From Salminus brasiliensis (taxonomy: Eukaryota; Chordata; Actinopteri; Characiformes; Bryconidae), in assembly GCF_030463535.1 (NCBI RefSeq), contig NC_132892.1, positions 33,782,932 through 33,846,931 on the forward strand: DNA of 64,000 nucleotides, read 5' to 3'. This document shows positions 16,851 through 44,874 of the stretch, piece by piece. The position numbers and the translations under genes were made by a program. Under the pieces are notes generated by a model. That model was not told the DNA's origin. It saw only the letters and a list, made by a program, of their open reading frames with translations, and ran no database searches. Position 1 is the stretch's first letter. The number at the start of each line of letters is the position of its first letter.

Positions 16851-18666
16851 ATGCTGTCAGTGAAAAAAGAGTAACTGCTGGTCTGGGACAGACTGTCTCG
16901 TTCAGCTGTGAATATGAAGACGATTACAAAAAATATCCCAAATTCTTCTGTAAATGGGAAGGCAGAACCTGTGCTAAAGTGATCAACAATGTACAGTCTC
17001 ACAAAGGCAGGTTCTCCATCTCTGATGACAAGAGGTCTGAAGTTCTCACATTGAGAATCAGTGATGTGAGAGAAGAGGATGAAGGAGTTTATTACTGTAA
17101 AAGGTGGGAAGATGGAAAACAAGTCCCCTTCAAAAAGATTCATCTACATGTTACTGGTGAGACATGTCCACTTACTATGTCTATATGTATGTGTGTGTGT
17201 AACCTAGTTTTGTCTCTGATTTCTTGCTTTATTTTATTTATTTCTATGAATGAGTGATTTCTAGTTTCATTTAAATGCATGTTTAATTTCCTCCACCATG
17301 ACGTAAACCACCAGTAAGGTCGACCACAACTATCAAGCTAATATCAAAAACTCACTGGAGCTCATCAACAGCACCAGCCACCATTGATGAAGAACATTAC
17401 GGTGTGGTTTTATTTATTAAACACTACATTTAAATATGATTTATATGATTTTACACTATATTTATATAGGATTGATATGATTATACACTATATGTCCAAA
17501 TATGTGTAGACACCCCTTCTAATAAATGCATTTAGCTACTTTAACTGAAAGCTTCATTTTCAGATTCATTTGAAGTAGTGTCCACAAACATTTGGACATA
17601 GAGTGTATGCCATAGGATGAGCAATGGTCTAATCATTGAGATGGTAATCAGATGAGCTGGTGGGTTCTTTCTGATATTGTTTCCAGCAGATTCCTCTGTC
17701 ATCATCATCATCATCATCATCACTGTCTGTGCAACTTTTCTGCTGATTGGAGGATTATCCACATTGTTCTGCAAACTGAGACGCAACAAGGCACAAGGTA
17801 TAGTGTTCACACACACACACACACACACACACTTGTGTTAATAGTGCAGGGGTATCTAATCTAACCCAGAGTGGCTCACACATGGTTTAAAACACTCAAG
17901 GTTCATAGAACCGATCACATAGACAGAGTGAAACCCAGCAGCTACATCGGTCCTTTCTGGATAAGATACACTCATAGTAAATATGTCTTAAGGACACTCC
18001 TGGTAAATGTTGCAGGATATAAAGTTGTGTAAGCATAAAACTGTACAAAGTCTCCCTCTACTGGAAGGATTGAGAACAATATATATGGCTCTGAGCATAT
18101 ATCTTTTTTTTTTTTAGACTCTGCCTTGACCAGCAGACTACGAGAAGCCCATAACAAAGTAAGTGAAACTCATCACAGTGAATCAGTTTGTAAACAAAAG
18201 ATTTATAAATGTATTATAAATAAATTCAAATGAACTACTAGAGAAAATGAACAAAGCAGGTGACTGTCTGTATATTTTAGACAATATACTTTTTATACTC
18301 TTGGAGTTACAGTATCTTCTTTAATCTTAATTGAATTTCACATAATTTATATGGTTTAAAACTGTGTCTTAATTTAATTTTGTTCATAATAAAACCATTA
18401 CACACAGAAAGCTAAGCTGTGTGTTTTGTGTTCAGGCTAATTATGATTATGAAAACGATCCACCTGGAAACCAGAAGAACCGCAACCTAAACACCAACAC
18501 CAACCAGTCAGATCCAGTCTACCAGAGTCTAGACCCCAACACCAACCAATCAGATTCAGTCTACCAGAGTCTAGACCCCAACACCAACCAATCAGATTCA
18601 GTCTATCAAACTTTAGGCCCTAGATTCATCAGATTTAACTTGTCTGAAATTGATCCGCTGGTCTGA
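16851..18666 (+). CDS. CD300-like receptor D, single Ig, ITIM repeats; signal exon not found
   Basis: Exons 16851-17156 (Ig), 17315-17401 (Ser/Thr stalk), 17687-17797 (transmembrane), 18118-18158, 18436-18666 (tail); phases agree. The Ig domain differs from that of gene A at only a few bases and keeps both disulfide pairs (VSFSCEY/VYYCKR, KFFCKW/RTCAK). The transmembrane segment starts with seven Ile coded by an ATC microsatellite. The tail begins ANYDYENDPP (YEN is a Grb2-type site) and has PVYQSL, SVYQSL and SVYQTL, the last two fitting the ITIM consensus. No signal-peptide exon or promoter block is visible back to gene C, so the gene may be 5'-truncated or use an unrecognised first exon. 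CDS start is therefore partial. Confidence 0.65.
17480..17612. mobile_element. Mini MITE, ends only
   Basis: Two inverted ends of the MITE family (CACTATATGTCCAAATATGT and CATTTGGACATAGAGTGTA) separated by little more than 60 bp: an internally deleted copy inside the gene D intron before the transmembrane exon. Confidence 0.6.
17700..17721 (+). repeat. Coding (ATC)n microsatellite in the gene D transmembrane exon
   Basis: Seven ATC codons in frame encode poly-Ile at the start of the membrane segment. Similar tracts occur in the transmembrane exons of F, G, H and I. Confidence 0.85.
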
Positions 18667-18837
18667 AAGTGGTGAATTGACAAAACCTCCAATAATGATG
18701 ACATTTGGAGGAACACACCTCCTCACAGTGAAAGACAACATTAAAGATAAAGTAAAGTTAATTTTGAACAGAAATTAAGTTTAAAATTATTTTATTTTGC
18801 TAAAAAATGAAGCAGATTTAGACTCACTGGTCACTCT

Positions 18838-19690
18838 ACATCTACAGAAGCCTGAGGCCTTGGTGTAGTCATGGATGATCAGTTATCGTTCTCAAGTCAT
18901 GTTGCAAATCTAACTCAGTCATGCAGATTCCTCCTGTACAACATCTAGAGATTTTGACCCTTCCTCTTTAGAGAGGCCACCCAGGTGCTCGTTCAGTCTC
19001 TTGTCATTTCAAGACTTGACCACTGCAGCTCTCTTCTGACTGGTCTCCCTCTGCGCACCATCAGGCCCCTGCAACTCATTCAGAACACAGCAGCATGGGT
19101 TGTCTTCAACCTTTCTAAGTTCAGCCATGTCACTCCACTGCTGCGTTCTCTCTTGACTGGCTTCCTGTAGCTGCTGCCCAGGTCTTCAGATTCAGACCCT
19201 GACTCTGGTCTTCAAAGCCAAGACTGGACCAGCCAGCCCCTCTGTAGCCCTTCCAGCTTCAAGTACGGCTCGGCTTGACCCGCCATCCTTTAAAATCCAC
19301 GGAAGACGAGCGTCCAGACTTGTTTCTGTCCTGCACTGAAGTGGTGGAACGAACTTCCCCTGGGTGTCCAAACAGCAGAGTCCAACACTCACGGTCCTCA
19401 AACCCAGACTGAAGACCCTCCTCTTCTGAGAGTACTTGGGTGAAGAGTAGAGTATTATGGTCTCTATATTGACTTGAGTCTAAGATTAGAGGATCTGAAT
19501 TTTTAGTCTATTCAAACTAAAAACTGTGTTTAATCTTACACTAACGGTTGCAGCTGTAACAACTGTCATTTCATGGGATCAATAAAGTATTTCTGATTCT
19601 GATTCTAGCTGAGGTTTTTCTTGAGTAAACAGTGAAGCACTTTTGTAAGTCGCTCTGGAGAAGAGCTAAACACTGTAAATGTAAATATAA
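18838..19690 (+). mobile_element. 5'-truncated L2-like LINE
   Basis: Broken frames read LGVVMDDQLSFSSHVANL, SLVISRLDHCSSLLTGLPL and RPLQLIQNTAAWVVFNL, which match the C-terminal part of the polyprotein of fish L2-type LINEs. It ends with GTAAGTCGCTCTGGAGAAGA and AAATGTAAAT, a 3' tail also seen, reversed, at 48.7 kb. Several stops; inactive. Confidence 0.75.
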
Positions 19691-20690
19691 GTGACTGTCT
19701 TCAAGTGTTATAGGAGTACAGTTTACTCTGACCTAATAGAACTTTTTGCTGAGTTCATGTTGCCCTTTTCCCACTCACTGGTGTGTCCTTTCTTGCCCAA
19801 CATTGATAGATGTTGTACTCTTATAATTTATGAAGATATTTCTGTCTGTTTTTTTCTAATGCAATTTTACAGAAATTTTAAACAAGTGCACTCATATTTG
19901 ATAACTTACAACATGCCCTTCATATTTATCATGCATTTATTTTTCTGGCCAATAGGTGGCAGTGTGTTCACTGAAAGTTTATTGAAAACCTTTGATATGA
20001 AGTTAAATCATAAGGGAAGAGAAAGCTGATCACAGATTAACTAAGAGGCAACATCTATACGTTTTGAAATGCACTGATTTATGATATGCTTTGCTAATGG
20101 ACCCTGAAGGTCTACAGGAGGGCTCATCAATTCAGGTCCTGGAAGGTCAGTTCCTTACTCAGTTTGGTATATTTCTTACTTAGACACACAGCTTCACCTG
20201 GTTATTAACTGCTGTTAAATAACTGCTGTTAAGTTTAATGAGGTATGTTTTAAGATGGACAAGACCCAAGCTGTGGTGGTCCTAGATTATTCATGAACTG
20301 ACAAACATCTTAAGGTTTAAGATTTGGCAGTGAGCAGTACAATCACATATTTCAGAAACCTTAATTTAGGCAGGGACAGTGATTATCTTTCTAAATTTCT
20401 TGAGGTCAACCATATTATTTCCTTTTTGCATTTTATTTTATGCCATAGTGCCAGATTGGTCTCAATACTCCACTAGATGGGGCCCATTTAATTTGTGGTG
20501 CTGGTAGGAGTGGCAGTGACTGGATAAAATATGACATATTCCAAAGAAAGAGGATCCAACTAAACCCGAAGGGAAGTGGAAACAAAAACATACACATACA
20601 AAAAGAGTCCAGTAACACAAAAATCAGTTCAATTCAAGAAGATCTTAAGACCATCTGGAAAAGTGAATTGAATTTCTGTGTAGCTTATTT
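19691..20690. other. Gene-less stretch before gene E
   Basis: No supported gene or RNA. A weak match to the promoter block (GTGGTGCTGGTAGGAGTGGC, about 20496-20515) lies roughly 200 bp before the gene E ATG. Confidence 0.4.
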
Positions 20691-20699
20691 CAGTTCAGG

Positions 20700-22351
20700 A
20701 TGAAGATTCTCCTCATCTTCACTCTCTACCAAGTCACAGGTGAGATATTTAACATAGGTTGCTGCCAATGGCTCAGTAAATGCAGCTTGTTTAAGAATGT
20801 TCCTTCAAGTTTTATTCAGAGAGCTCTGAAAGGCTCAAGAAACCAACAATTGCTTTTAATTGACTGTATTGAGTTGTGTCAATATTAGTGAAAGTGCAGC
20901 CTTAGGGATCAGTTTAAACTCATGAGCACTCATCCCTCAAAGCCACTTTTGGGCTAAAATAGCTTTGATCAATAAAAAATACAACTGTCAGATCATTATT
21001 TAAGCTAACGGTGATCTTCATAGCAAAAAAGACACTGTGATGAGCATGAAGACAGCACCGCATGGGGGCTGGGATGGGGGTTAGAACAGTCATGTGACTG
21101 ACAGGGGCCCTAAAAATGCATTAATTGAGTATTTTGAAGAATTGTTAGAATTGTGGGCCCCAGTGTAACATCTTTTCATGGGGCCCCTGCATGAAGATCA
21201 GGGTTGAAAATATACCCAGTATTAGTTAGGTCTTGGCTCCTAGGTGAAGACTAGCTGTCCTGTCAAGACCAAGTCTAAATAAAAACCAAGACCAAGATGA
21301 GATCAAGACTCCATAAAATAATTTTCATACTTGAATTAGTCATTAACTGCAGTCCGAATTTCTCAATCTTCCTAGATTGGTTGAGCTATTAAAGTAAGCT
21401 TTCACATAGTTTATTACATAGCTACACAATATGTCTAAATGTTTGTGGACACCCCTTCTAATTAATGCATTCTGCTACTTTATGTTACTCTAATTGCTGA
21501 CACAGAAGTGTCACAACTTGTCTAGTCCCTGTAAGGTATTGCCATATAGAATAGGACTCTCTGGAGCAGATTAACATGAACCTATTGGCTCCATGCCTAA
21601 TGCCAGGCATGGGCTAGAGGGGTATAAAGCCCCCCAGCATTGAGCTGTGGAGCAGTGATTCTGTATTCTCTGGAATGATGGTGGTGCTCCATCCAATACT
21701 TTTGGGATGAGTTGGGGATGAGGTGGGGTGGGCATCATCCAACATCCTGATCTCACTAAAGCTATTGCGGCTGAATGCAATCAAATCTTCACAGCAATGC
21801 CCCTCCAAAATCTACTAGAAAGCTGTGCTCCCTGGACAGTAGAGACCTCAACAAAAGCAGGATTAACTCTTTTAAATACCCTTGACTTGAAGAAACAGTG
21901 AATGAACAGGTGTCCCAAAACTTTTGTCCATATAGTGTAGCTGCTATATATTTCCCCAATAATTAATTTTGTTATGATTGTATGGTTGACAGATGCCTGG
22001 AGTATAGAGTTAGTGACTGCACTCCTGGGAGACACTGTAACTATCAGCTGTAACTATCCAGAGGAATTCAAGAACAAACCCAAGTTTTTAGCCAAAAGGC
22101 ACGATAACTCTTTTACAGAAGTGATCCAAACCACAGAGTTTCAGAAAGGCAGATTCTCCATCTTTGACGACAGAAAGTCCAACATTTTCACTGTAAACAT
22201 CAGTGATGTTAGAGAAGCTGATATAGGAGGTTATTCGTGTAATGGAAAGAGTGTAAAATTGACCACCTTCAGGAGGATTGATCTCCAGGTTGTTGGTAAG
22301 ATAATATTATATATATTTAGTAATATTGTATCCAGAATTTTTGAAGTACCA

Positions 22352-22447
<96 letters not shown>

Positions 22448-23625
22448 TATACACATGGTGGATACACCTAAATAAAACTGGAATGGTTGGTGATATTAAC
22501 GTCCTGTTATAAGTGGTCAGAAACTTGTAAATAACTCATGAAAGAATAAAGTTACATTAAAACCAAGCACATCATTGATTTGTTTTTTTTTAAATTCTCA
22601 ATAAGTTTGATGTGTGACATGACCCTCTTCCCATTGAAAAAAAGTTGGATCCAAAATGGCCGACTTCAAAATGGCCACCATGGTCACCACCCATCTTGAA
22701 AAGTTTTCCCCCTCCCATATACTAATGTGCCACAAGCAGGAAGGTAATATCACCAACCATTCCCATTTTATTTAGGTGTATCCATATAAATGGCCCACCA
22801 TATATATATATATATATATATTATGAATTGGAAAACACCCCTCTTAATGTTTGAATTCAGATGTTTGATTCAGTCCCATTCAGCCACAGGGGTATAAAAT
22901 CCAGCCTCTAGTCCTGCAGTCTGTCTTTCTTCCACACATCAGTGAAAGAACGGGAGGTTCTGAAGAGCTCACTGAACTCCAGCGTGGTTCTGGATGTAAT
23001 AGGAGACACCGCTGCACCAACAACAACAAGTCAGCTGGTGAAATCTCCTCCCTCCTAGATCTTCCTCCATCAGCTGTGAGGGGTATTATTACTGAACAGT
23101 GGAAGAATTTAGGAGGAACAGCTCACAGAGAACAGCTCAGCCACCGAGTGTCAGACCATTTTGCCGATTTTGCACAGTAATTGTGACGTAAAGGACTCTG
23201 AAGTTACTGTATACAGTAATATATATATTTTGACAGTTGTTTACTGTTAATATGGCACTGCAGTGAACTTATGGCAACTAAAATATTGCAGTGCAAATAT
23301 TGTATTTCACATTGTTTTTATCTTTAATGTTTGACCTTGTTTTTTATAAATGTTTAAATGTGTAAATTATTTAATTTAATGTTTTGTCATTTAAACAACA
23401 TTATAATAACCACCACCAGCAAGACCAACTACAACTAAGACACCAATGACAGCACCCTACAGGAGCACATCAGCAGAACCAGGGGTATTTGCATCTCATA
23501 AAGAAAAAATCAGTAAGAACTCATATTTATATATACTTTCATTTTATTGTTTATTCCTTCCTTCCTCAAATAAATAAATTAATGGGTATACATCTGTAAT
23601 ACTACTACTACTAATAATAATAATA

Positions 23626-23693
<68 letters not shown>

Positions 23694-23906
23694 TCTATAC
23701 TGTATGTACTGAATTATATGTGAGGTTGTGTTTGTGTTGTAAAGTTGTGAGTGATCGAAGTGGTGGATCTTTCTGTTCCTTTGTCTGTATTTCAATTCCA
23801 GGTTCCTCTGTTCTTAAAACAGTTGTATCAGTCTGTGTGGTTCTGCTGCTGATTGGGGGATCAGCAGTGGTTTTATATAGACTCAGATATCACAAGAGAC
23901 AAGGTA

Positions 23907-23945
<39 letters not shown>

Positions 23946-24502
23946 GAGTTTATGTGGGCTGGACTGTGGATTCACTTTTCAGACCATCACTTTATTGCTT
24001 AGAGATGAGCACTAGACCTTCCCCTAGAGGACGGTTGGAGAACAGCACCTATGGCACTGACTTTTTCTCATTTCTCTTTTTCTCTAGACTCTGACTCTTT
24101 AAGCCAACAAGCAATAAGAAAAAAAGTAAGTGAATTATCTCAGATGTAAAATTGCCATCAGAACTGTTGATTTCACCACTCTAAAAGTAACGCATGTGTC
24201 TTCCTCCCCATCCCGTATGTCTACCTTAAAGAGGTTGAATCTAAAGAGCTTATTGGCACTGTGTGTTTCTCTGATTTTAGGCAGATGGTGATAATGAAAA
24301 TGACCGACCAGACCAGAAAATGCACTTGGATCCAATCTATGAGATCATAGACCCCAACACCAACCAATCAGATTCAGTCTACCAAAGCCTAAACCCCAGC
24401 ACCAACCAATCAGATTCAGTCTACCAGAGCCTAAACCCCAGCACCAACCAATCAGATTCAGTCTACCAGAGCCTAAACCCAGACATTAACCAATCAGATT
24501 AA
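20700..24502 (+). CDS. CD300-like receptor E, single Ig, three ITIM repeats
   Basis: Exons 20700-20739 (MKILLIFTLYQVTG signal), 21993-22295 (Ig), 23420-23512 (stalk), 23802-23903 (transmembrane), 24088-24125, 24281-24502; 265 residues. The Ig has the canonical pair (TISCNY, GYSCNG) but not the second CD300 pair (KFLAKR). It keeps the family signature GRFSIFDD and ISDVREAD. The membrane segment is VVSVCVVLLLIGGSAVVLY with a Lys just outside. The tail has PIYEII and three SVYQSL motifs in a 42-bp repeat; the family YENDPP is changed to NENDRP, losing that Tyr. Decayed repeat units run on past the stop to about 24720. AATAAA lies at 24883-24888 and 25098-25103. Likely inhibitory. Confidence 0.82.
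21107..21192. repeat. Dispersed repeat shared with 51.9 kb
   Basis: GGGCCCTAAAAATGCATTAA through TTTTCATGGGGCCCCTG is close to the reverse complement of about 51836-51925. It is an unclassified interspersed repeat. Confidence 0.6.
21422..21944 (-). mobile_element. MITE copy, full length, in intron 1 of gene E
   Basis: Reversed copy with both ends (GTCTAAATGTTTGTGGACAC and TTTTGTCCATATAGTGTA). It ends about 48 bp before the Ig exon, close enough to abut the branch-point and acceptor region. Confidence 0.75.
22353..22438. repeat. (CT)n(AT)n compound microsatellite
   Basis: CT tract followed directly by a long AT tract just after the gene E Ig exon. The open frames across it on both strands are artefacts. 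Confidence 0.95.
22453..22799. mobile_element. MITE with about 55-bp inverted repeats in gene E intron
   Basis: The left end GGATACACCTAAATAAAACT and following sequence is repeated inverted at the right end (ATTTTATTTAGGTGTATCC), running about 55 bp. The interior holds AAAATGGCCGACTTCAAAAT. I recall this as a widespread fish DNA element, but cannot name it. Confidence 0.7.
22822..23165 (+). mobile_element. 5' fragment of a Tc1/mariner-like element
   Basis: The text around GGGGTATAAAATCCAGCC, AGTGAAAGAACGGGAGGTTC and CACTGAACTCCAGCGTGGTT matches the leader and first codons of a common fish Tc1/mariner family. No usable transposase frame remains. Confidence 0.55.
23634..23691. repeat. (AT)n microsatellite
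   Basis: Pure AT tract in the gene E intron before the transmembrane exon. Confidence 0.95.
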
Positions 24503-24720
24503 GTCTACTGAGGCTAAACCGCAACACCAACCAACCAGAGTCTAAACGGCAACTAGACAGATTCAGTCTGGCTTAGTTTTTAAATCCCTAAACCAAAACT
24601 CTACTAGAACTATTACATCAGGTCTACCAAAACCCAATTAAATTCTGTCTACAATCAGATTAAATCAGGCAGACCCTCAACCCCAATACCAGAGATTACT
24701 AGAGCAGACTCCAAACCAAA
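24352..24720 (+). repeat. 42-bp ITIM-coding minisatellite, gene E
   Basis: Unit encodes NPNTNQSDSVYQSL. Three good coding units are followed by a unit with a stop and then by decayed copies in the 3' UTR. Confidence 0.85.
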
Positions 24721-26340: not shown

Positions 26341-26935
26341 CCTGTTTGGCCTCTGCTTGGCATCCAGGGGCAGAGCATATTCCTCTCTTCTAAAGTGAGT
26401 TTCTTCTTGCTTTCTCAGGCTGAGAAAACCTGATCTCTTCCTTTAACCCCCTTTCTACAATACTGAACCGGTTTTAAAGCCTAATCAAATGTCTCCCTCT
26501 AGTGGTCAGATAGGCACCAACATCTACTGCCTTGATGTTTTCTCTTTCTTAGAGACTCACACCCAACAAAGAGAAACAAATAACAGAGTAAGTATAAAAT
26601 GCATGAACATCAAAACTCCAACATCAAAAAAACAAACTCTTGATTTAGTTTCACAGTAATCAAAAATCTAATTTTATTATATTTCTCAACCAATTTTAAC
26701 TCTATGTTGCTCTTATGTCAGGCTGCTGGTATTTCTGGAAATGATCTACTGGGAAACTAGAACACGAGCATCTTTCTCACTCTAAACCCCAACACCAACC
26801 AATCAGATTCAGTCTACCAGAGTCTAAACCCCAACACCAACCAATCAGATTCAGTCTCCCAGAGCCTAAACAACAACACTATCCAATCAGATTTAGTCTA
26901 CCAGAGGATAATCTCTAATAACAATAAATGAATAA
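26341..26935 (+). pseudogene. Tail-end fragment of a CD300-like receptor
   Basis: Three pieces align with the 3' half of F/G/H: the intron sequence TTTGGCCTCTGCTTGGCATC, a decayed juxtamembrane exon (about 26553-26587) with a shifted frame that hits TAA, and a tail exon from 26722 whose frame stops at TAG after GATCTACTGGGAAAC. It is followed by three 42-bp ITIM-repeat units. No Ig or transmembrane exons lie nearby, so this is a leftover of a deleted duplicate. Confidence 0.7.
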
Positions 26936-26962
26936 CAATCTACTTGAACTCTAATAACAATC

Positions 26963-27780
26963 CCCAAAGCTTCTGGGAGAATGTCCTATGGATAGATAGG
27001 ACAAAAATTGAACTTTTTGCCAAGGCACATCAGCTCTATGTTCACAGATGGAAAAATGAAGCATATCAAGAAAAAAAAAAACACTGTCCCAACTGTGAAA
27101 GATGGAGGAGGCTGTTATGTTCTGGGGCTGCTTTGTTGCATCTGACACAGGGTCCATTGAATCTGTGCAGGGTACAATGAAATCTCAAGACTATCAAGGG
27201 ATTCTAGAGAGAAATGTGCTGCCCAGTGTAAGAAAGCTTTGTCTCAGTCACAGGTCATGGGTCTTGCAACAGGATAATGACCCAAAACACACAGCTTAAT
27301 ACACCCAAGAATGGCTAAGAGGAAAACATTGGACTATTCTGAAGTGGCCTTCTATGAGCCCTGACCTAAATCCTATTGATCATCTTTGGAAGGAGCTAAA
27401 ACATGCTGTCTGGAAAAGACACCCTTCAAACCTGAGACAAGTGGAGCAGTTTGCTCTTGAGGAGTGGGCCAAAATACCTGCTGAGGGGTGCAGAAGTCTC
27501 ATTGACAGTTACAGGAATCGTTTGATTGCAGTGATTGCCTCAAAAGGTTGTGCAACAAAATATTAAGTTAAGGGTACCATCGTTTCTGTCCAGGCCGGTT
27601 TCATGAGTTCAATAATTCTGTTGAAGCATAGTTGAAAATCAATGTCTGACTTTCATTTGTTCATTTTCATAGCATTTTTATTTATTATTACTTTTGTCAG
27701 ATTCAGGTTATTTCTGTGACCATTGTGGGCTTTTCTTTCATTAACTGAGGGGTACCAACGATTTTGTCCACGTGTGCATT
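26963..27780 (+). mobile_element. Tc1-like transposon, 5'-truncated
   Basis: Frames read [11 protein letters not shown], the block DNDPKHTA and NPIDHLWKELKHAVWK (Asp in place of the usual catalytic Glu), ending in ASKGCATKY and a stop at about 27564. The 3' end carries GGGGTACCAACGATTTTGTC. Same family as the copy at 52.1 kb. The DNA-binding half is missing. Confidence 0.8.
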
Positions 27781-31371: not shown

Positions 31372-33000
31372 GTAATCAGAACACATATGTGAACATATAC
31401 ACATTTGATATAAATAAATAAAAGTAAAAAAGTCTTTAAAATCATCTGTAATTAATAGAAAAGCTATTTTCTTTTGAGAAAAAGACAAATAGGATACCTT
31501 TTGCCCCAACATCTAAAATTACCACTTTTGTCTGAGATAACCTTAATTAGCCAGTCTCTGACATCAATGTGGAGAAAGTTCCTACTCCTCTATGCAGAAA
31601 TCTTTCATCTGGGTGATGTTTCAGCATGAGTTTAAGGACACACAGTCTCACATTTTTCTCAGGATGATATAATAAAGATGTAACTGTAGATTTTGTGATA
31701 AGAGAACTCCCTCTTTCATTTTGTATTCATGTTAAATATGTTCAGGTAGAATTTCAGAGCTTTAGGCTTGAGACTACGAACTGAAACAGATGTGAAACTG
31801 AAGCATATCTTGTTAGATTAAGTGTTTGTGGTCTGTCTCTCAGCTCCAGATTCCTCCGTCTTCATCATCATCATCATTGCTGTAAGTGTCAGTGTGATTC
31901 TACTGCTGATCTCAGCATTAACACTGATCTTCCACCGACACTGCAAGAGAAAGGGTACTGTATCATAATCTATTTTATTATTTATTTTCTTTTATTATTT
32001 TTATTTTAATCTGTATTGCTGCTAATGAATGTTGCCACTATCTGTAAATCACTTTGATCTGCCAGTATAAAACTGCTCTAGAAACAACAGTAGTTATTTA
32101 TGTCACAAAGTGGTACAGAAGTGATAATAACCCTTTTGGCCTGTAGGCAGCCCATAGGCTTTTTAAGGGGTTAATAATCTCAGGGCTGTTTTGTGGGTGG
32201 ACCTATGCTTGGGGTTTAAGTATTAGAACATGTTCCTTTCTTCTAAAAGGAGCTTACTTATTGCTTTCTCATGCTGTGTTTTAAAGTAAAGTAGCCTGGT
32301 TTCTTCCTTTAACCCCTTGCTACAATACTGCATATGTTTTAACAGGTTTTTTAAGAAAACCCACCTGTTTTTGTTCTACTTTTCCAGCAGGCTCAGACTC
32401 AATCAGTCAACAAAGACAAGTGAATAATACAGTAAGTGCAGAGGTTCTGTTCTCCACTCCACTAAAATATCAATACATACATAGAATAAACAAGCCATGC
32501 TCATGTGCATTTAGTAATTAGAGATAATTAAAGAAACTGAATAGCTGACTCTAACTGGTTCCTGATTACATCACTAATGGCCATTTCATGTTTTGTATAA
32601 ATAAATTATTTTCTAATTCCATTTTTAATTACTTTCAAATTACACCAGTTTCAAGTAATTTCTGTTGTCTAATTGTTTGACATTTCCTGATATGTACGCT
32701 GTATTCTGATTTCAGGCTGATGATTGTGAAGAAAATGATCTTTCAAGAAACCAGAACAGCATCAGCACAGCTGCATCCTCTTACACCCTAAATCCCAACA
32801 CTAACCAATCAGATTCAGTCTACCAAAGTCTAATCCCCAACATTAACCAATCAGATTCAGTGTACCAAAGTCTAATCCCCAACACTAACCAATCAGATTC
32901 AGTCTACCAAAGTCTAATCCTTGACACCAACCAATCAAATTTCAGATACCACAGCCTGAATTCAATACTACCCAATCAGATTCAAGGTACCAGAGTCTAA
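29351..33000 (+). CDS. CD300-like receptor F, two Ig domains, three ITIM repeats
   Basis: Exons 29351-29390 (MKIFLIFTLYMISG), 30561-30866 (D1), 30991-31317 (D2), 31844-31954 (transmembrane, poly-Ile from ATC codons), 32391-32431, 32716-33000; 369 residues, phases consistent. D1 is the cysteine-poor type: B-strand Ser (IIIASN), C-strand Leu (KYILKI), F-strand Phe (VYRFGV), with SCFDV, KCINK and DCVYD kept. D2 has TISCNY and VYFCGV plus an extra Cys (LNCSQG). The juxtamembrane exon has a CAGCAG acceptor that could give two forms. The tail starts ADDCEENDLS (the family YEND Tyr is lost) and has three SVYQSL ITIMs and a weak FRYHSL. A frame change then ends it at 33000, with more repeat copies left untranslated to about 33230. 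Likely inhibitory. Confidence 0.82.
30108..30200 (+). mobile_element. SINE fragment in intron 1 of gene F
   Basis: GGGCAGTGGTGACTCAGCAT then GCTGTGGGTTCAATACCGGT and AAAGTTGCCACTGTT: the tRNA-like head of the local SINE. Copies sit at the matching place in G and H. Confidence 0.65.
31326..31370. repeat. (TTA)n microsatellite
   Basis: Trinucleotide tract that starts eight bases after the donor of the gene F D2 exon. Confidence 0.95.
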
Positions 33001-33232
33001 ACTCTAAAACCAATGAGTCAGATTCAGTCTAACAGAGCCTAAAGTCCAACACCAAACAATTAGATGCAGTCTAACAGAGCCTGAATCAAGCACCAACCAA
33101 TCAGATTCAAGATACTAGAGCCTAAACCCCTACACCAACACATCGGATTCAGTCTACCAGAGTTTAAACCCCAACACCAACCAATCAGATTCAGTCTACC
33201 AAAGTCTAATCTCCAACACCAACTAATTCAAT
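32790..33232 (+). repeat. 42-bp ITIM-coding minisatellite, gene F, running into the 3' UTR
   Basis: Good units to about 32935, then a frame change and decayed units, then better units again at about 33130-33220 that are not translated. The array was once longer as coding sequence, or has grown after the stop. Confidence 0.8.
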
Positions 33233-34266: not shown

Positions 34267-35149
34267 GGGTTAAGCAACTCTAACACAAAATAAGAAAATA
34301 AGAAAGACCTGAATCAGAAAAAGAGGACCTTCAGTAGGACACACAGAGACAGAGCTACAAACATCATTTCATTCTGAGGACATCTGAAAAGCTTTTGGTA
34401 AGGTGGATAAAATCTCTGGAGTTCAGGTGCAGATCTTCCTCATCTTCACCCTTTACATGATCTCAGGTCAGATGTTCTATTTTAATTCTACAGATATTAT
34501 TTCTAATATGGCATCATTGATCAGGTCAACAGCATCAGAGTAGTACACTAACTGCTAAATCTATGTCGGCTAATAGAAACCTATGTTGTTAAGCGTCAAG
34601 CTACCAACAATGATATCCCTGGTTTAAACAATTGCTCAGTCTGATCACATGTGCTTCAGCTTGGCTGGAATAAAAATTGCATACACACTGACCCTTTGCA
34701 TAAGATTGGATACCCCTGCATTTTAAGTCAACAGATATCAAAATGTATAAATCAAGATATTAAGTAAAACACAGTTAATTGAAGACAATAAATAATTAAG
34801 ATTGGGCACCCCTGGCTTAAAGCATTAATAACTAAAAAGATTTAAAAACATAACTTTATAACTTTATAATTCATGTCTGAGTTCCAGAAACAATTAATAA
34901 TTAGAAAATATAACTTACTAGCTGAAAATAATTACATAGCACAGTTCCAGCAGAGTTTGATAATCTATCTGATGTGACCCTTCCAAAAAACATAAAAATG
35001 AACAGACAAACCAGATTACTGTGAGTGGGAAAACAACAAATGGTTCTCAGTGCTGGTTTTCCAGGACCACAAATGGAAAAAAAAATTATGGCAATTCATG
35101 TTAACAATGTAAAAAATATATTAATATTGGTTAGGAGGGTCTTCCATAA

Positions 35150-35200: not shown

Positions 35201-37240
35201 GCTGTGCCCAAAAGTAACACTAGGTAGCATTGTTCCTTTAAAAAAACAACTTTAAGATCATTCTGACGATGTACTCACTGACACAGGAAATAGCATCTTT
35301 ATCTTGCTACTCCAGGCTCAGTACACTGCTGCTGCACTAAGTAGCTCTGGCTAAGCAAGGATAACGCTCATGATAACTGCATAAGTTTAAAGTCCTATAC
35401 GCTTTAAACGCTAGTGTAATTCCTGTAATTGTACTCTACCACCTCAGCCCACATGCTTCTTTACCTTTTAGTAATGGTTCAGCATCTCTAATGCAAAGTG
35501 TCTCCTTCTTTAAAGGTGGTGCAGAAAATGAATTCCTCTAAACCCAAGAGCAAGAAATAGCAGTTCTTACATAATGCTGTTTTATCTCTCTCTGATCCTG
35601 GATTGCTGTAGCATGACTGACCTAGTGCGCTTACAAAGAGAAGATAAAATAATAATAAAAAATTGTATAATAACAATAAAGGCATCTTTATCTTTATCTA
35701 AATACTTCCTCTTGATTGGCAGGTTCAGGGTCCTGCTTTGATGTGATTGGTTATTCTGGAGGAACTGTCATTATACAATTTGATCTGTGGTGGTCCTCAT
35801 CCCATACTAAATACATTTGGAAAATTGATCAAACTAAGTGCATAAATAAAATACCTCCTGACTCCAGAAGTGATTGTGTTTATGATACAAGATTCATATT
35901 GTACACTTCAAGTAAAACAGGACACTTGATGGTGCTCATCAGAGCACTGAAACCCCAGGATGCTGGAGTGTACATGTTTGGAGTGGGGGAGATGCAAAGT
36001 AGGGAAGTGGAGTTAAAGATTATGAACAGTGAGTGATGATATCCTTTATCCTTATTTTGTGTATTAAATATATATATATATAACCTATGAATCCAGAATA
36101 ACGGCACAGCTGATTCTGCTGTTCTGTAACTCAGGCGTTTCTTTATATGATTGACAGATGATTGCTGTGAGGGGACAAAAACACTGAGTGGTTCTCAGGG
36201 AGAGACGCTCACTACCAGCTGCAACTATCCAGAGCAGTTTCAGGATTACTATAAATCCTTATTTAAACTGGATGATCTTTCTATTACCGAGATCCTTAAC
36301 ACTGGAACAGGATCTCAGAGAGGCAGGTTCTCCATCTCTGATGACAGAAGCTCTTAAGTTCTCAGAGTGAGAATCAGTGATGTGAGAGAAGATGATGGAG
36401 GAGTTTATTCCTGTGGAGTGTTCATTGGAGAGGGTATAGAGGATTATTACACCTTATTTACAGAGATTCAGCTTCAGGTCACTGGTGAGATACATTATGT
36501 TTGTATCATGACACAAATTGCAATCTTTAAAATAAAGGTACTACAAATGGTTCTTCTGGAGATACCATAGAAGAACCTTTTTTGTTACATAAAGAACCAT
36601 GATTATCAGAGAAATGAATATGAGTGTAAAGAACCTTTGAGGTAAAGGTTCTTTGTCAATTTAATGGTCACATCTCAACAAAAATGTTTATGTAACTAAA
36701 AGTGGCTCAAAAGGATCACTCAAAGAACCCTAATAGCACCTCACATGCAGTCATGTAAAGAAATTAGAACACCTCATGTCAACCTTTTTCGAACATATTA
36801 AAACATCTGGAATTTTGATCTTCATGTGATCAATACTGAGTGATGGAGGTGATATAACTAAACTCACACAACTGAGGAAATGTCTTTAAACATCATTTAT
36901 AAAAATGGAAATTCACTAAAATGCAATATAAAGTTCTAGAGAGGAAACGGTTAGAACACTCTATGTCCAAGTAGCTGGTATGTTTCAGTGATATTACCTT
37001 CATCTCTCAGTGTTGTTCAAATGAGGATCCAATCAGATGTTTAATCCAGATGTTTAAATATGGTGAATAGTCCTATTTCATTTACATGAATATTCATTAC
37101 CATAGCACTCTTCTGTAAGCCTCGACTAAACTGTGACTCAGCACTGAGAAGACTACAGTAGAAGATTAGAAGACAATATTACTAAGAACCCAGAGAGCAG
37201 CAGCTTTTACTAGAACAAATTCTAATCAAATTTAATATTC

Positions 37241-37242
<2 letters not shown>

Positions 37243-37291
<49 letters not shown>
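37243..37291. repeat. (AT)n microsatellite
   Basis: Dinucleotide tract before the stalk exon of G. Confidence 0.95.
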
Positions 37292-37293
<2 letters not shown>

Positions 37294-37661
37294 GACTTTC
37301 AGTTTTCACTGTATCTTCCTACAGCAAGAACATCAGCAGCACCAACAACAGTCATCACCTCTGATGAAAAACCTTCCAGTAAGATCTTAGTCTTCACCTC
37401 TTTTATTCTGTATTATTGTTAAATGTGTTCAGGTGGAGCTTCAGAACTTTAGGCTCCACAACAGGAACTGGAACAGATGTGGAGCTGGAGTCTTTTCTTT
37501 CTTCGTTCCTTAATAGGTTCCTCTGTCATCATCATCATCATCATCACTGTGAGTGTCTGTGTTGTTCTGCTGCTGATTGGAGGATTCTCACTGATCTTCT
37601 ACAAACTAAAGAACCGAGGTACTATTACTCCCACCAGTGGCATAACAAGTCATCTGTTATT

Positions 37662-37663
<2 letters not shown>

Positions 37664-37708
<45 letters not shown>
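37664..37708. repeat. (TTA)n microsatellite
   Basis: Trinucleotide tract about 45 bp after the G transmembrane exon; another (AAT)n lies at about 38334-38368. Confidence 0.95.
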
Positions 37709-37709
<1 letters not shown>

Positions 37710-38332: not shown

Positions 38333-38370
<38 letters not shown>

Positions 38371-40153
38371 CTCTAAAGGGAAAACTTGTGTACATTGTAA
38401 TACTCTACCTCGTAGATGACACCAATGTACCTTTCACTATTATCTCCCTAAGCCCATTGTTCAGTTTTGTCCACTGTTCAGGGTTGCTGGATGTTGGGAG
38501 ACTGTTATTGGATCTATTTTACTGAAATTAGACACTTGTTCATTTTAATGCAGGATTCTAAAGGCATTCTTGTTGAGTATAAGAATATCTGTTGGTGAAT
38601 TATGAAACTGTGCTTTTTGTTTAGACTGTATAGCTGTTCATTTCCAGCTGTTCAGCTCCAATCCCAGATACCCGACCCAGCAGCCCTGAGCAATGGACAA
38701 TGGACTTAGATAAGATAAGAGTTAGTGGTGTATTAGTGCCCTCTATAGGGCTGGGTGGGTAACTTTCTTAGATTTTAAACATAAAGATGCACGTATTTGT
38801 CACTGTACAGTGTACACTATATTGTATTTTGGGGTGGGCTTATGCTTGGCCTCCAGAAGCTTTAAGTTTCAGAGGATGTTCCTCTCTGCAAAAAGGAGCT
38901 TCCCTCTTGCTTTCTCATTCTGTTCTTTAAGGACAGGTGTTTTCATGGGCATTAAGTTGCCTGGCTTCTTCCTTTAACCCCCTTTCTATGGTAATGTGCC
39001 TGTTTTAAGCCCCAATCAAAGGCCAATGCTAAGGTATTCTTCTAGTGGGGAGTTGGAGACCGAAATCTACTGCCTTGATCTTTTCTCTTTTACTCCAGGA
39101 TCGGGTTCAATCTGCCGACAAACGGGAAGAAATAACACTGTAAGTCTAAAATATACCAGTGTGTGAATTATTACCAAAAGCTTCTATCCACCACTGTAAA
39201 ATAGTCAATACACTGTCTGTTCATGAAATAAACAACCCTGCTTCTGTATATTTAGTCTATAATTACAGAAACTGAAAACTGATGGAATGTGCATAATTCT
39301 CTGACTGACTTAAAATGTTCTGGGAATTTTCTAATTACATATCATTTCTAATCTCCATTTCTAATGAGTTTTGTTTCTTTACAATCTCCTTAACTTAATC
39401 TGTACTGTGTGTCACTCTGATTTCAGGCTGATGGTGATTATGAAAATGATCCACCTAGAAAACAGATGAGCAACACCACAGGAGACTCAGTCTACCAGAG
39501 TCTAAATCCCAACACCAACCAATCAGATTCAACCTACCAAACTTTAGGCCCTAGAGTGAAAATATTTAAGTAATCAAATGTTGGTCTATATATCAATGAT
39601 TAGTACAAAGTCTTTGTGTAGAACAACCATCTGCAGTATTTTATATTTCATCAATAAAACAGATTATTTTGTACATTTATATGTTTTTCTTTCTCATATT
39701 AAAAACACAAGACATTTAATAGACATTTAATAGACATTAAATAGTCTTAACTTCATAACATCTTACTTAATGGAGCATACTAGTGGAAGTGATCCTCTGG
39801 CTCTACTGTGATTTATGAGAGTACATCTCACTCTCAGTTTCAGATTGATTGTCGGCTTTTTGCTTTGTTTTTACTAATGTTTACACAGTTAATGACAAAT
39901 AAGGAAGTGATACAATTAAGTAACTTCTAATTTCTTATGTTTTTTCTTATCCCAGCTAACACCAAAAGTATTATCTCTCAATACATAGTTTCCACACTAC
40001 TGTGAGTCCTGTCTCTCATTCATCAAACATGTCAGATCAGAAAAGAGAAATAACAATACGAAAGTGACTTCAGGCCTATTAAGCTATAAACTCATTAAAA
40101 TAACAGAATTTAAGGAGCTCAGAATTTATTTAACCTTATATGGAGTGTCTTAA

Positions 40154-40156
<3 letters not shown>

Positions 40157-40193
<37 letters not shown>
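40157..40193. repeat. (GA)n microsatellite
   Basis: Dinucleotide tract between G and H. Confidence 0.95.
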
Positions 40194-40197
<4 letters not shown>

Positions 40198-40227
40198 TAC
40201 ATCCCTGTATTGTCCCTGTTTCAAATA

Positions 40228-40642
40228 CATTGTATAGTCAGAAGTATTGGGACACCTGCTCGTTCACTGTTTCTTTTGAAATCAATGGTTTTAAAAAGAA
40301 GTTATTCTGCTTTTATTGGAGTAACTGTCTCAACTGTCCAGGAAGAAGGCTTTCTGGACCAGCATTTTGGTAACAATTTAATTGAGCGATAAGATTATTA
40401 GTGAGGTCAGGATGTTGGATGATCACTTCCCAACCTCATCCCAAAAGTACTGGATGGAGCTCCACCACCATCATTCCAGAGAACACCGTTCTTCCACTGC
40501 TCCACAGCTCAATGCTGGGGGGCCTTATACCCCTCTAGCCCACACCTGGCATTAGGCAGCAGGGTGCCAATAGGCTAATGTTTATTTGCTCCAGAGAGTC
40601 ATTAGAAGGGGTGTCCACAAACATTTGGACATATAGTGTAGG
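40228..40642 (+). mobile_element. MITE copy, forward, near full length
   Basis: From CAGAAGTATTGGGACACCTG to CATTTGGACATATAGTGTA, with the CTAGCCCACACCTGGCATTA core. Confidence 0.75.
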
Positions 40643-40776
40643 TCATTTAAATCTCCTTAAGACTGTTTGTTTAAATAACTTCCAGTTTAAGAAAGGATGA
40701 TATGTGACATCGCTTCATGAGAATAGAATGAAGCATTTCATCATTTATGAACTCTTTCTATGTAATGTGGTGTGTG

Positions 40777-40856
40777 GTCAGTGATGCTGATTGGAGGAGC
40801 TGTCGGGTTAAGCAACACCAAAAATAAGAAAGACCTGAATCAGAAAAGAGGAACTT
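40777..40856 (+). promoter_or_regulatory. Shared promoter block and ETS-like site, gene H
   Basis: GTCAGTGATGCTGATTGGAG at 40777, followed by AAAGAGGAACTT at about 40845-40856. It lies 178 bp before the ATG. The wider flank from TATGTAATGTGGTGTGTGGT onward is also shared with F and G. Confidence 0.55.
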
Positions 40857-40954
40857 CAGTTGGACACACAGAGACGGAGCTACAAACATCGTTTCATTCT
40901 GAAGACATCTAAAGAGCTTTTGGAAAGGTGGATCGAATTTCTGTGGAGTTCAGG

Positions 40955-43900
40955 ATGAAGATCTTCTTCATCTTCACCCTCTACATGATCTCAGGTCAGA
41001 TAATCTATTATTATTCTACATGTATCCTAGTGCTAATATGACGTCACTGGCCGGGTCTTCAAGCTCAGAGTAGAACGCTAGCTTCCATTTCGACTAACAG
41101 ACACCTTCATTGTTAGTCATTGAGCCATATCTTAAATATTTTTGCATGTTTTTACGCATTTAGATAAAGGATTTTACTCTATATGTTGACTTAGTCATGC
41201 ATTTTGAACATTGCTTGAAACTGAAAGTTTGTGTCTTATAGAAACAGTAATAATGTCGTACGGAGTTCCAGCACAATTTTGTAAAGTCCTTGATCCGGCT
41301 CTCCCGCTAAACCTAAAAACTTACAGACAAATCAGATTTATATCAGAAAGAAAAAAACAAAGCTGTGCTCAATGCAGGTGTTCCAGAACCAGAAAAAAAA
41401 CTATCATGGAAATTCATGGTCATGATTGAATAAATAATAACACTGTATTTACAATCATTTAATTGGTGGTGAGGCTTCAACTGAAGGCTCAACGAGGCTG
41501 AGTTTAGGGGCAGTGGTGGCTCAGCATAGAGTGCTGTATTATTGATGACACGGTTGTGGGTTCAATATCTGTGTCAGCTATGTTGCCACTGTTGGGCCTT
41601 TCAGCAAGTTCCTTAGCTCTCTATGATCCAGGGGTTCTGCAGCATGGCTGATCCAGTGCTCTGAAAAAGAGAAGCATTTTGTTGTATTGTAGAAGTGTGT
41701 AAATGATACATTTATTAGTATAATGACCATAAAGACTTCTTCCTATTTCCTCTTGATTGGCAGGTCCAGTGTCTTGTCTTAATGTGTCTGGCTTTTCTGG
41801 AGGAGGTGTTGTTATAGACTCTGATCTGGCATGGTCCTCATCCCATACTAAATACATTTGGAAAATTGACCAAAATAAGTGCATAAATAAAATACCTCCT
41901 GACTCCAGAAGTGATTGTGTTTATGATACAAGATTCATATTGTACACTTCAAGTAAAACAGGACACTTGATGGTGCTCATCAGAGCACTGAAACCCCAGG
42001 ATGCTGGAGTGTACATGTTTGGAGTGGGGGAGATGCAAAGTAGGGAAGTGGAGTTAAAGATTATGAACAGTGAGTGATGATATCCTTTATCCTTATTTTG
42101 TGTATTAAATATATATATATATAACCTATGAATCCAGAATAACGGCACAGCTGATTCTGCTGTTCTGTAACTCAGGTGTTTCTTTATATGATTGACAGAT
42201 GATTGCTGTGAGGGGACAAAAACACTGAGTGGTTCTCAGGGAGAGACGCTCGCCATCAGCTGCAACTATCCAGAGCAGTTTCAGAATTACTTTAAATTAT
42301 TTGTCAAACTGGATTATCTCTCTATTAGGGAGATCCTTAACACTGGAACAGGATCTCAGAGAGGCAGGTTCTCCATCTCTGATGACAGAAGCTCTAAACT
42401 TCTCAGAGTGAGAATCAGTGATGTGAGAGAAGATGATGGAGGAGTTTATTTCTGTGGAGTGTTCATTGGAAAGGTTTCAGAGGGTTACTACACCTTCTTC
42501 ACAGAGACTGAGCTACAGATTTCTGGTGAGATTGGTGAACATTATCAAGTATAACAAGTATCATGAGACAAACTATAATATTCTCCAGATGAGATTGAAT
42601 GAACGGTAGAGGAACATACACCCCATTGAAACCTTACACCTATTAAAACATCTGGAAATTTTATCTTCATGTGATCAATATGGAGTGATGATGGAGGTGA
42701 TATAACTAAACTCACACAACTGACGAAATGTCTTTAAACATTATTTCTAAAATGGAAACAATAGAAATGCCATGGAAATTTCTAAAAAGTTCTAAAAGGT
42801 TAGAACACCCTATGCCCAAATATCTGGTATGTTTCAGTGGTATTACCAGTTTAGTGGTAAATCAGATGTTTATTACAAATGTTTAAATATGCTAAACACT
42901 GTGTCCTACTTAATTTACTTTACTCTACAATAATATCCTTAACACTTTGTAGGCTTTGACTAAACTGTGTCTCAGCACTTAAAAGACTAGAGTTAAAGAT
43001 TAGAAGATGATATAACTAAGCTTTTACACATAACAGCTTTTAATAGACCAATTTTCTACATTCAACTTTAATATATATTTACACTATTCAGATTATAATT
43101 GCTTTTGAATTATTTTTTTCCACTTGATCTTCCTCCAGCAAGAACATCAGCAGCACCAACAACAGTCATCACCTCTGTTGAAGAACCTTCCAGTAAGAAC
43201 CTCTTTCATTCTATATTCATGTTAAATGTATTCAGGCGGAGCTTCAGAGCTTTAGGCTCCACACCAGGAAATGGAACAGAGCTGCAACAACAGCTGTATG
43301 TTCCTGGTTTGAGGAGGTGTTTGTGGTCATGCGTGATACATTTTATGATTGTTCTTTCTTTCTATCAGATACAGGTTTCTCTGTCATCATCACCATCATC
43401 ATCATTATCATCATCAGTGTGAGTGTCTGTGTGGTTCTGCTGCTGATTGGAAGACTAACACTGATCTTCTACAAACATTGCAAGAGACAAGGTACTATTA
43501 CTCCCACCAGTGGCATAACAAGTCATTGAGGTGCCTCCCTCAATCTGAGGCAACAGATCTAGCTGCAACAGGTCTAATTAACTTAAAGCCAAGGTCAGGG
43601 AAAACTTTTGCACATATCCCACTATGCCCTGTAGATGGCACCAATATGTATTTCACTATTATTTCCCTAAGCTTATTGTTCAGTTTTGTCCAGTGTTCAT
43701 GGGTGCTGGGCGTTGGAAAGTCTGTTTAATTTTAATACAGGTTTCAAAGGGTGCTCTGGTACAATATAAGAATCTCTGTTGGTGAAACTGTGTATTTTAT
43801 TTAGACCAACTTCAGAATAAAGTGCTATATAGCTGAGTAATTCGTTTGTATGGCGTACCTCTGAATAATCATAAAACCTAGGTCTTTTGAGTTTTTTTTA

Positions 43901-44874
43901 CCCATTATAACCCACATCACTTATTTGCCTCACTGAATTTATTTTGATGATCATCATACAATCAAACAATATGTATACAACAGGGTCTGTTTTATGTATC
44001 AAGACTCTCATACCCTCAAAATCGTATTAAGTCAAAAAGTGTTTTTATTACTAAAAAAGTATGCTATTAAAACTCCTAAACTTTATTTTTTCACTGATAT
44101 TATTTGTCTTTGTCTATTTGATTAATACTATGTTAATATGTGTTGCTGATAATGAATATTACCACAGTCTGTAAAAAATTCAAATCTGCTACCTCTATAA
44201 AAACTGCCCTAGAAACGAAGGTTATTATCATTAATAAAAGCATAGGTTTGTGAGTTGGAGGTTGTCCACCATCACCAGGGTTTTAATGCAGATTAATAAA
44301 GCCCCAATCAAAGGCCAATGCTAATGTGTTAAAGTTGGAAATCAATGTCTTGTGCACCAACCTTTTCTCGTTTTCTGCAGACTCGGATTCAATCTGCCGG
44401 CAAAGAGAAAGAAATAAAGTAAGTGTAAAATATATCAGTGTGTGAATTCTTACCAAAAGCTTCTATCCACTACTTTAAAATAATCAATATACTGTGTATA
44501 TAATCAACCCTGCTCATGTATATTTAGTCTATAATTACAGAAACTAAAAAAACTGATGGAATGTGCATCATTCTCTGACTGACATTAAATGTTATTTTTT
44601 GGAAATGTTGATTTAAATTTCTAATTACATATAATTTTGTTTTGTTTCTTTCCCATCTCTTAATCTGTGCTGTGTGCCACTCTGATTTCAGGCTGATGGT
44701 GATTATGAAAATGATCCACCAAGAAACCAGAACATAAGCATATTTGCAGTCTCTCACACCCTGAACCCCAACACCAATCAATTAGATTCACAATACCAGA
44801 ACCTAAACCTGAACAGCAACCAATCAGATTCAACATACCAAACTTTAGGCCCTAGATGGATAAGATTGAAGTGA
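40955..44874 (+). CDS. CD300-like receptor H, two Ig domains, two tail tyrosine motifs
   Basis: Exons 40955-40994 (MKIFFIFTLYMISG), 41764-42069 (D1), 42199-42525 (D2), 43139-43192 (stalk), 43369-43491 (transmembrane), 44381-44418, 44692-44874; 356 residues, phases consistent. D1 has no canonical Cys: B strand Ser (VVIDSD), C strand Trp (KYIWKI), F strand Phe (VYMFGV). From mid-D1 through the next intron it is almost the same as G. D2 has AISCNY and VYFCGV. The membrane segment is Ile-rich (ATC/ATT codons) and has Arg where paralogues have Gly (LLIGRLTLIF). The tail starts ADGDYENDPP and has SQYQNL and STYQTL, both of SxYxxL ITIM form. AATAAA is at 44905-44910. Mostly inhibitory features; the Arg could in principle allow adaptor pairing. 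Confidence 0.82.
41505..41660 (+). mobile_element. SINE in intron 1 of gene H
   Basis: GGGCAGTGGTGGCTCAGCAT, GTTGTGGGTTCAATATCTGT and ATGATCCAGGGGTTCTGCAG: the local tRNA-derived SINE at the same relative place as in F and G. Confidence 0.65.

Follow-up and report, generated by a model that had tools for sequence, protein, structure and literature searches.

Receptor genes and repeat arrays in the window

The window analysed here is a stretch of 64,000 nucleotides from the characiform fish Salminus brasiliensis (GCF_030463535.1, contig NC_132892.1, positions 33,782,932 to 33,846,931 of the forward strand), located at C15:33.78-33.85 Mb in its own 1.07-Gb assembly. Read through its open frames, it carries on the + strand a series of receptor genes with immunoglobulin domains, which we named A to K. 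Five of them (D to H), all pIgR/CD300-like, carry in their terminal cytoplasmic exon an in-frame 42-bp unit, AACCCCAACACCAACCAATCAGATTCAGTCTACCAGAGTCTA, encoding NPNTNQSDSVYQSL, and these exons are in phase 0 with conserved splice sites. An earlier reading of the DNA from its letters alone (the sequence-only reading) had described this unit as a minisatellite multiplying immunoreceptor tyrosine-based inhibitory motifs (ITIMs) in the tails, over a span that runs from the first base of the last exon of D (18436) to the last base of the stop codon of H (44874). The observation is confirmed and is larger than first described.

Genes D to I each possess a short exon (Cyt1) of 38-41 bp, always 2 modulo 3 in length and with a GTAAGT or GTGAGT donor, between the transmembrane (TM) exon and the last exon (Cyt2); an alternative reading of this exon in F gives 44 bp. 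Cyt2 begins directly after an AG, in phase 0 and typically with ADGDYENDPP, and the YEN is kept at its start in D, G, H and I. Once the TM, Cyt1 and Cyt2 exons of D, E, F, G and H are spliced, uninterrupted tails holding the arrays are obtained. The tail of D contains PVYQSL, SVYQSL and SVYQTL; that of E, three SVYQSL preceded one pitch (14 residues) upstream by PIYEII; that of F, three SVYQSL and FRYHSL; that of G, SVYQSL and STYQTL; and that of H, SQYQNL and STYQTL. The terminus YQTLGPR is common to D, G and H and absent from E and F.

The copy numbers given by the sequence-only reading (three in D and E, three plus a weak one in F, two in G and H) agree with a 42-mer scan and with the spliced tails, and their inequality among paralogues extends genome-wide over a range wider than that within the window. 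Most units also fit the ITIM consensus as quoted in excerpts of two papers (PMC4810170, PMC8631942). The strict form (S/I/V/L)xYxx(I/V/L) fails in the first unit of D, which has P at position -2, and in the fourth unit of F, so that D, E, F, G and H hold two, three, three, two and two strict ITIMs, respectively.

As expected of a minisatellite, the arrays consist of one unit repeated head to tail. Tandem Repeats Finder (TRF) reported period-42 arrays at 18487-18605, 24351-24539, 26781-26906 and 32794-33227 with scores of 203 to 414, the two-unit arrays of G and H being absent from its list, and the top score for periods of at least 20 in first-order Markov surrogates (n = 20) was 57. When both strands were scanned with the 42-mer, all matches of at least 29 of 42 bases lay on the + strand, each either within a homologous tail exon or immediately 3' of one, and the two minus-strand matches scored 24, which is chance level. 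A chance origin of the arrays was thus rejected on both the TRF scores and the scan, and a dispersed satellite landing in exons was rejected for the window, since good matches are confined to homologous tail exons and the sequence directly downstream. The repeat had no match among plasmids (one F region as query), nor among viral contigs, prokaryote genomes or solved structures.

Several arrays bear lesions. The fourth unit of E contains the stop of its tail, with degraded units beyond, and gene I is a decayed sixth tail that stops after HTYQNL. An orphan three-unit array lies inside a tail exon with an in-frame TAG, with a Cyt1-like piece near 26.55 kb, and reading the open frames between gene E and this exon revealed no immunoglobulin (Ig) or TM frame. 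The array of F comprises ten units, of which the six distal ones add no motifs because a 41-bp step after the fourth shifts the frame. The same array (32791-33208) has a higher-order period of 125 bp, made of two 42-bp steps and one 41-bp step, and a block duplication there would therefore shift the frame. The claim that slippage adds or removes whole motifs consequently does not hold as stated: it fails at 41-bp steps, as in F. The coordinates of the exons and arrays are given in Table 1.

Table 1. Tail exons and repeat arrays of genes D to I (positions of the window).
Feature	Positions	Strand	Basis
Gene D TM exon, phase 1 to 1	17690..17797	+	AG/GT sites, uncharged hydrophobic run
Gene D Cyt1 exon, phase 1 to 0	18118..18158	+	polypyrimidine-AG, GTAAGT donor
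Gene D terminal Cyt2 exon: YEND and 3 units (18490-18615)	18436..18666	+	42-mer scan, splicing
Gene E TM exon	23802..23903	+	splice model
Gene E Cyt1 exon	24088..24125	+	GTAAGT donor
Gene E Cyt2 exon: PIYEII and 3 units (24350-24475), TAA stop in unit 4	24281..24502	+	42-mer scan, splicing
Gene E unit 4 (with stop codon) and degraded untranslated units	24476..24580	+	42-mer scan
Orphan Cyt2-type exon: in-frame TAG, 3 units (26785-26910)	26722..26910	+	42-mer scan
Gene F TM exon	31850..31954	+	splice model
Gene F Cyt1 exon (start 32388 also possible)	32391..32431	+	GTAAGT donor
Gene F Cyt2 exon: 3 canonical units and FRYHSL (32791-32958), frameshift, stop	32716..33000	+	42-mer scan, splicing
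Gene F six further units, out of frame or past the stop, two 41-bp steps	32958..33208	+	42-mer scan
Gene G TM exon	37517..37618	+	splice model
Gene G Cyt1 exon	39099..39139	+	splice model
Gene G Cyt2 exon: SVYQSL, STYQTL	39427..39573	+	splice model
Gene H TM exon, one Arg inside hydrophobic run	43375..43491	+	splice model
Gene H Cyt1 exon	44381..44418	+	splice model
Gene H Cyt2 exon: SQYQNL, STYQTL	44692..44874	+	splice model
Gene I Cyt2 exon: YEND, HTYQNL, stop; decayed units after	51165..51251	+	tail-exon reading

Further tandem arrays at 14559-15343, 46292-46841 and 61596-61700 correspond to a 14-bp minisatellite (56 copies) and to telomere-like arrays of degenerate CCTAAC and GGGTTA in opposite orientation. 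The open frames at 8341-9373, 26932-27566, 52229-52895 and 58057-59257 are, we presume, fragments of Tc1-type transposases together with a minus-strand reverse transcriptase-like frame; the first of them lies within gene B, after the Ig part and before the TM exon.

Ectodomains and related receptor families

All seven Ig frames compared with the Pfam V-set model matched it, five above the curated cut-off and two (the first Ig domains of F and G) weakly. Among solved chains, with which D and H were compared, pIgR ranked first (2.5e-29 for D, 5.2e-15 for H) and CD300F/CLM-1 was also matched (1.3e-8 and 2e-7), antibody V domains ranking in between. The receptors can thus be placed in the CD300/pIgR-like V-set family. 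An extra CX6C cysteine pair is present in the V-set domains of A, I and J, and CX7C in K; the exon phases and the CX6C match the description of the first Ig domain of NILT3, the comparison with NILT being made by description only.

Two pairs of genes share their ectodomains and differ in their tails. The Ig region of A is 88% identical to that of D (3455-3953 vs 16816-17331), and C and G are 94-95% identical over two Ig exons (11819-12618 vs 35706-36514), whereas the tails of A and C hold an ITIM plus a motif resembling an immunoreceptor tyrosine-based switch motif (VKYISV/TQYVTV and LTYTTV/TEYATV, respectively) and those of D and G hold the repeat. The pattern suggests that tails were swapped, or ectodomains converted, between the receptors of each pair.

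We regard the family as a variant of the multi-ITIM receptor families of teleosts, set apart by the repeat unit of its tail. As described in excerpts of the report on salmon NILT (Ssa-NILT1-6, PMC3022915), these too are V-set receptors encoded in clusters, each with one or two exons for Ig domains, a Cyt1 exon of phase 1 to 0 and several ITIMs per tail (4-5 in salmon) encoded in a phase-0 last exon, the genes being interspersed with pseudogenes and transposable elements. The same excerpts describe no tandem repeat unit and one to five ITIMs, compared to up to 13 strict or 15 relaxed motifs here, and they relate NILT, known here by that description, to NKp44/TREM, whereas the tested domains of the window match pIgR and CD300 first. 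CD300/CMRF35-like and pIgR-like proteins, as described in the paper on carp SITR (PMC3031540), resemble the present family by V-set domains with an extra CX6C, by clustering and by the transmembrane nature of some zebrafish families; the carp SITR proteins differ in being soluble and devoid of ITIMs. In catfish, IpLITRs are teleost ITIM receptors for which an excerpted account reports binding of both SHP-1 and SHP-2. Their membrane-proximal YxN Grb2 site recalls the YEN at the start of the tail exons, and their tandem ITIMs stand 22 residues apart rather than forming an array of 14-residue repeats (PMC4810170). Chicken BG genes, according to extracts of their description, likewise form a multigene family of the immune system whose cytoplasmic tails are repetitive and vary in length, with ITIMs involved, although each 21-nt heptad repeat is an exon of its own and the ITIMs fall outside the repeat unit, in a possibly retained intron (PMC4046983).

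Searches limited to open-licence PMC papers showed no description of an ITIM-encoding minisatellite. The tails of mammalian CD300 are not known to contain such a repeat. Similar SVYQ repeats may occur in predicted cyprinid proteins of public databases. The 48-bp exon repeat of human DRD4 offers a parallel, being a coding minisatellite by which short binding motifs are multiplied in the cytoplasmic portion of a receptor; it differs in receptor class and motif, and its polymorphism is known.

The repeat across the genome

A query made of a double unit gave at least 48 matches, located between 33.19 and 34.43 Mb of C15 and at one place on C27, and a query made of the tail exon at least 80, including two weak ones on C11. 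The window belongs to a 1.2-Mb receptor cluster. Thirty-six tail regions were surveyed (29 fetched and the seven tail exons of the window), and five upstream stretches were also fetched. Of the 36 regions, 26 (20 from the fetched set and six from the window) have an open tail exon preceded by an AG acceptor; the other 10 were assigned none. Across these 26 tails, the number of translated YxxΦ motifs varies from 1 to 15 and that of strict ITIMs from 0 to 13, gene I having none. Examples are the loci L010 (15 YxxΦ motifs), L011 (nine), L012 (eight), L013 (six) and L014 (four). At L012 the gene is largely complete: in addition to Cyt1 and a tail holding eight strict ITIMs, it has two Ig exons, a TM exon free of charged residues and a segment resembling a leader. 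L010, where the start of Cyt2 was set at the AG directly before the open frame, yielded one Ig match and a Cyt1-like exon, and L011 three Ig matches and a Cyt1-like exon. A plan of three motifs, such as YQNL, SVYQSL and SVYHSL, is common to several tails and may be close to the ancestral state. On C27, L009 (C27:27107500-27114000) carries at 2854-3786 an orphan array of about 22 units. Nineteen of these share a frame, at steps of 42 and 39 bp, and no receptor exon was found within about 9 kb upstream.

Such a survey bears on the possibility that most arrays lie in decaying genes, copy number reflecting relaxed constraint or pseudogenisation. The orphan array at 26.8 kb, the stop in I, the frameshift in F, the GTG in the leader of G (discussed below) and the 10 tail regions without an assigned open exon all point in that direction. 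With 26 tail exons open behind an AG acceptor and a largely complete gene (L012) encoding eight intact ITIMs, we consider this explanation improbable for the family as a whole.

The arrays seem to change by local events. Identical translated 42-mers were found in 6 of 263 pairs within genes and in none of 4015 between genes, a confinement to single genes that indicates local duplication; L029, one of two near-identical loci, was dropped from these unit distances. The nearest relative of a unit lay in its own gene for 32% of units, compared to a mean of 6% and a maximum of 14% in 1000 permutations, and adjacent units were the most similar, with a mean of 9.8 differences compared to 11.4 for non-adjacent units within a gene and 12.3 for units from different genes. 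L014 and L015 are 94% identical over 3.3 kb and have four and three YQSL units, respectively, their similarity ending in the array, and L015 carries a frame lesion before it; the difference fits repeat-mediated exchange. Steps are of 42 bp in translated arrays, with a single one of 39 bp in L010, and include 41, 43, 38, 36 and 35 bp in untranslated stretches; the way a frame is defined accounts for part of this contrast.

Retention of the tyrosine in translated units

Units past stops, in orphan exons or in loci without a recognised tail exon served as a control class for the translated units. The loci L015, L019, L035, L036, L037, L039 and L040 and the orphan exon of the window, for which no tail exon was assigned, were counted as untranslated. 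L009, an orphan array on another contig, and L018, the frame of which is unclear, were omitted, as were units holding the stop of their own tail, preceding the tail exon or lying out of frame inside it. The tyrosine was kept in 91 of 96 translated and in 61 of 109 untranslated units (p = 3.5e-11). Since a stop at the tyrosine codon itself ends the frame, stop-bearing units were dropped and the comparison repeated, giving 91/96 vs 43/66 (p = 1.2e-6), and in these stop-free units the change of tyrosine relative to all other amino-acid changes also differed between classes (p = 1.5e-4). Leaving out L019, which contains duplicated decayed units, gave p = 6.7e-5 and 0.0033. The difference was seen with the stop-free untranslated units that follow the stop codon in an open tail (17 of 23 tyrosines kept, p = 0.0067) as well as with those of loci lacking an assigned tail exon (26 of 43, p = 1.3e-6), and it was significant at similarity thresholds of 24 and 26 of 33 bases. 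Within the window alone the test was weak, YxxΦ being present in 14/14 translated and 6/10 untranslated units (p = 0.02) and the strict ITIM in 12/14 and 6/10 (p = 0.19).

These counts have to be weighed against a neutral origin, in which replication slippage or unequal exchange expands an array that is tolerated because the C-terminus is disordered, signalling being done by one or two of the motifs while the extra ones are passengers. The main support for it comes from gene J (56470-57010), which harbors a second in-frame tail minisatellite behind a phase-0 AG, with about ten copies of a 51-bp unit, QLPTIPSDPPNTVYATA, the tyrosine context of which ends in A or S and is not an ITIM, the last part of the array being in another frame; in-frame tail repeats therefore arise at this locus without selection for ITIMs. 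The presence of several other tandem arrays in the window, the untranslated state of the distal units of E and F, a nonsynonymous/synonymous ratio that is equal in the two classes of units and the lack of better conservation at -2 and +3 in translated units (values below) also agree with neutrality. On the contrary, of the 11 core codons that of the tyrosine changed least often in translated units (5/96, the next codon being changed in 16), compared to 23 changes in the 66 stop-free untranslated units, and the long translated arrays kept it nearly throughout (15/16, 8/9 and 7/7). The tyrosine of the J unit itself was kept in six of nine full translated units, compared to 14 of 14 in D to H (p = 0.047). 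We regard the neutral explanation as a serious possibility, albeit a doubtful one. The retention signal is correlative and one of the tyrosine, not of the whole ITIM consensus.

A sorting function is another way to read this signal, the units being mainly endocytic YxxΦ signals for AP-2 that set the surface level of the receptors. YQSL fits the YxxΦ motif, and the retention excess is clear for the tyrosine and not for the -2 position of the ITIM. One or two such signals normally suffice, which leaves long arrays unexplained, and translation of a unit brings no better conservation of the +3 residue, on which AP-2 also depends; such a role as the principal one has a low likelihood.

A predicted signalling role

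We favor the interpretation that a coding minisatellite in a terminal phase-0 exon sets the number and spacing of ITIM-type tyrosine motifs, to which we give a probability of about 0.63. Each unit would supply one phosphorylatable ITIM-type YxxL on a 14-residue pitch; Src-family kinases would phosphorylate the units and tandem-SH2 phosphatases would be recruited, probably SHP-2 rather than SHP-1 because the residue at pY+1 is the polar Gln. A polar residue at this position disfavours SHP1 according to an excerpted study, in which the residues named are S, T, K and D, not Gln (PMC8631942). Neighbouring motifs are 14 residues apart and alternate ones 28. From extracts of the respective papers, SHP2 is best activated by two motifs with a linker of about 40 Å (PMC10231330), PD-1 uses Y223 and Y248 (PMC7078208) and the motifs of PECAM-1 are 22 residues apart (PMC4810170). 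A third copy would create the first 28-residue pair, near the 25 of PD-1 and the 22 of PECAM-1, and three copies may thus open the first good bidentate site. Copy number would then set geometry as well as dose, and two-copy genes such as G and H may differ from the others in kind and not only in degree. Since the array forms the end of the protein and its exon is the last one, frameshifts and stops within it only move distal motifs into the 3' untranslated region, and the number of translated motifs would be set by the array length and by the first lesion. The tuning of inhibitory strength by copy number, suggested by the sequence-only reading, is plausible, with codon-level support for the tyrosine only.

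Alternatively, adjacent motifs could act as pairs resembling an immunoreceptor tyrosine-based activation motif (ITAM; here YxxL-x10-YxxL) or as multivalent docking sites for Syk, in receptors that activate. Adjacent motifs of D to H fit a relaxed YxxL-x6-12-YxxL, and excerpts on Syk binding to the tandem ITIMs of PECAM-1 and on stimulatory signalling by the ITIM-bearing IpLITR 1.1b provide precedents (PMC4810170). The Arg inside the TM run of H and a Lys near the start of the TM exon of E could pair with an adaptor; the TM runs of D, F and G hold no charged residue. The canonical ITAM, YxxL/I-x6-8-YxxL/I, was rejected, since the spacing is x10 throughout D to H and none of these tails shows the canonical 6-8. 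Activation through such pairs is, in our opinion, unlikely.

Several results weigh against the interpretation favored above. Parts of the genes are missing or damaged: the leader of G at 34427 reads GTGCAG where F and H have ATGAAG, its start codon being apparently lost, a leader of the type of the family was looked for in D and not found, and no TM exon was found at L010 (15 motifs) and no convincing one at L011 (nine motifs). The other residues of the motif behave differently from the tyrosine, the -2 Ser being changed in 16/96 translated and 15/66 stop-free untranslated units (p = 0.42) and the +3 Leu in 20/96 and 18/66 (p = 0.35), which is no difference, and the two Gln codons differing weakly (p = 0.02 each). 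The overall nonsynonymous/synonymous ratio was 0.40 in translated and 0.45 in untranslated units (p = 0.51; 72 and 47 units). Among near-consensus units (at least 28 of 33 bases) the tyrosine excess was not significant (p = 0.074 and 0.14). Some of the stop-free untranslated units could be translated, since 43 of the 66 come from loci without a recognised tail exon, and the p-values are too small because units related by descent were treated as independent. Regarding the arrays themselves, similarity of units within genes was present among the nine canonical units of the window (p = 0.007) and absent over all 24 (p = 0.63), and the mean distance within genes did not differ significantly from that between genes (p = 0.14; 72 units of 33 bp).

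Going further, the number of ITIMs might be an evolvable digital dial ranging from two to about fifteen motifs, on which the third copy opens an SHP-2-bridging pair, long arrays form multivalent phosphatase scaffolds, and repeat-mediated exchange and stops move the dial between paralogues and individuals. This extended scenario is speculative and, taken in full, rather unlikely.

Implications

Engineering is the usual means of studying the effect of ITIM number and spacing on inhibitory strength. Here, a natural series of paralogues presents 2, 3, 4, 6, 8, 9 and 15 motifs on one repeat pitch. With this series and with a 94%-identical pair of loci bearing unequal arrays, one of them with a frame lesion before the array, the effects of dose and geometry would be directly testable. 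A further implication of the repeat is that an immune gene family may have a fast mutational means of altering its signalling while its ectodomain remains unchanged.

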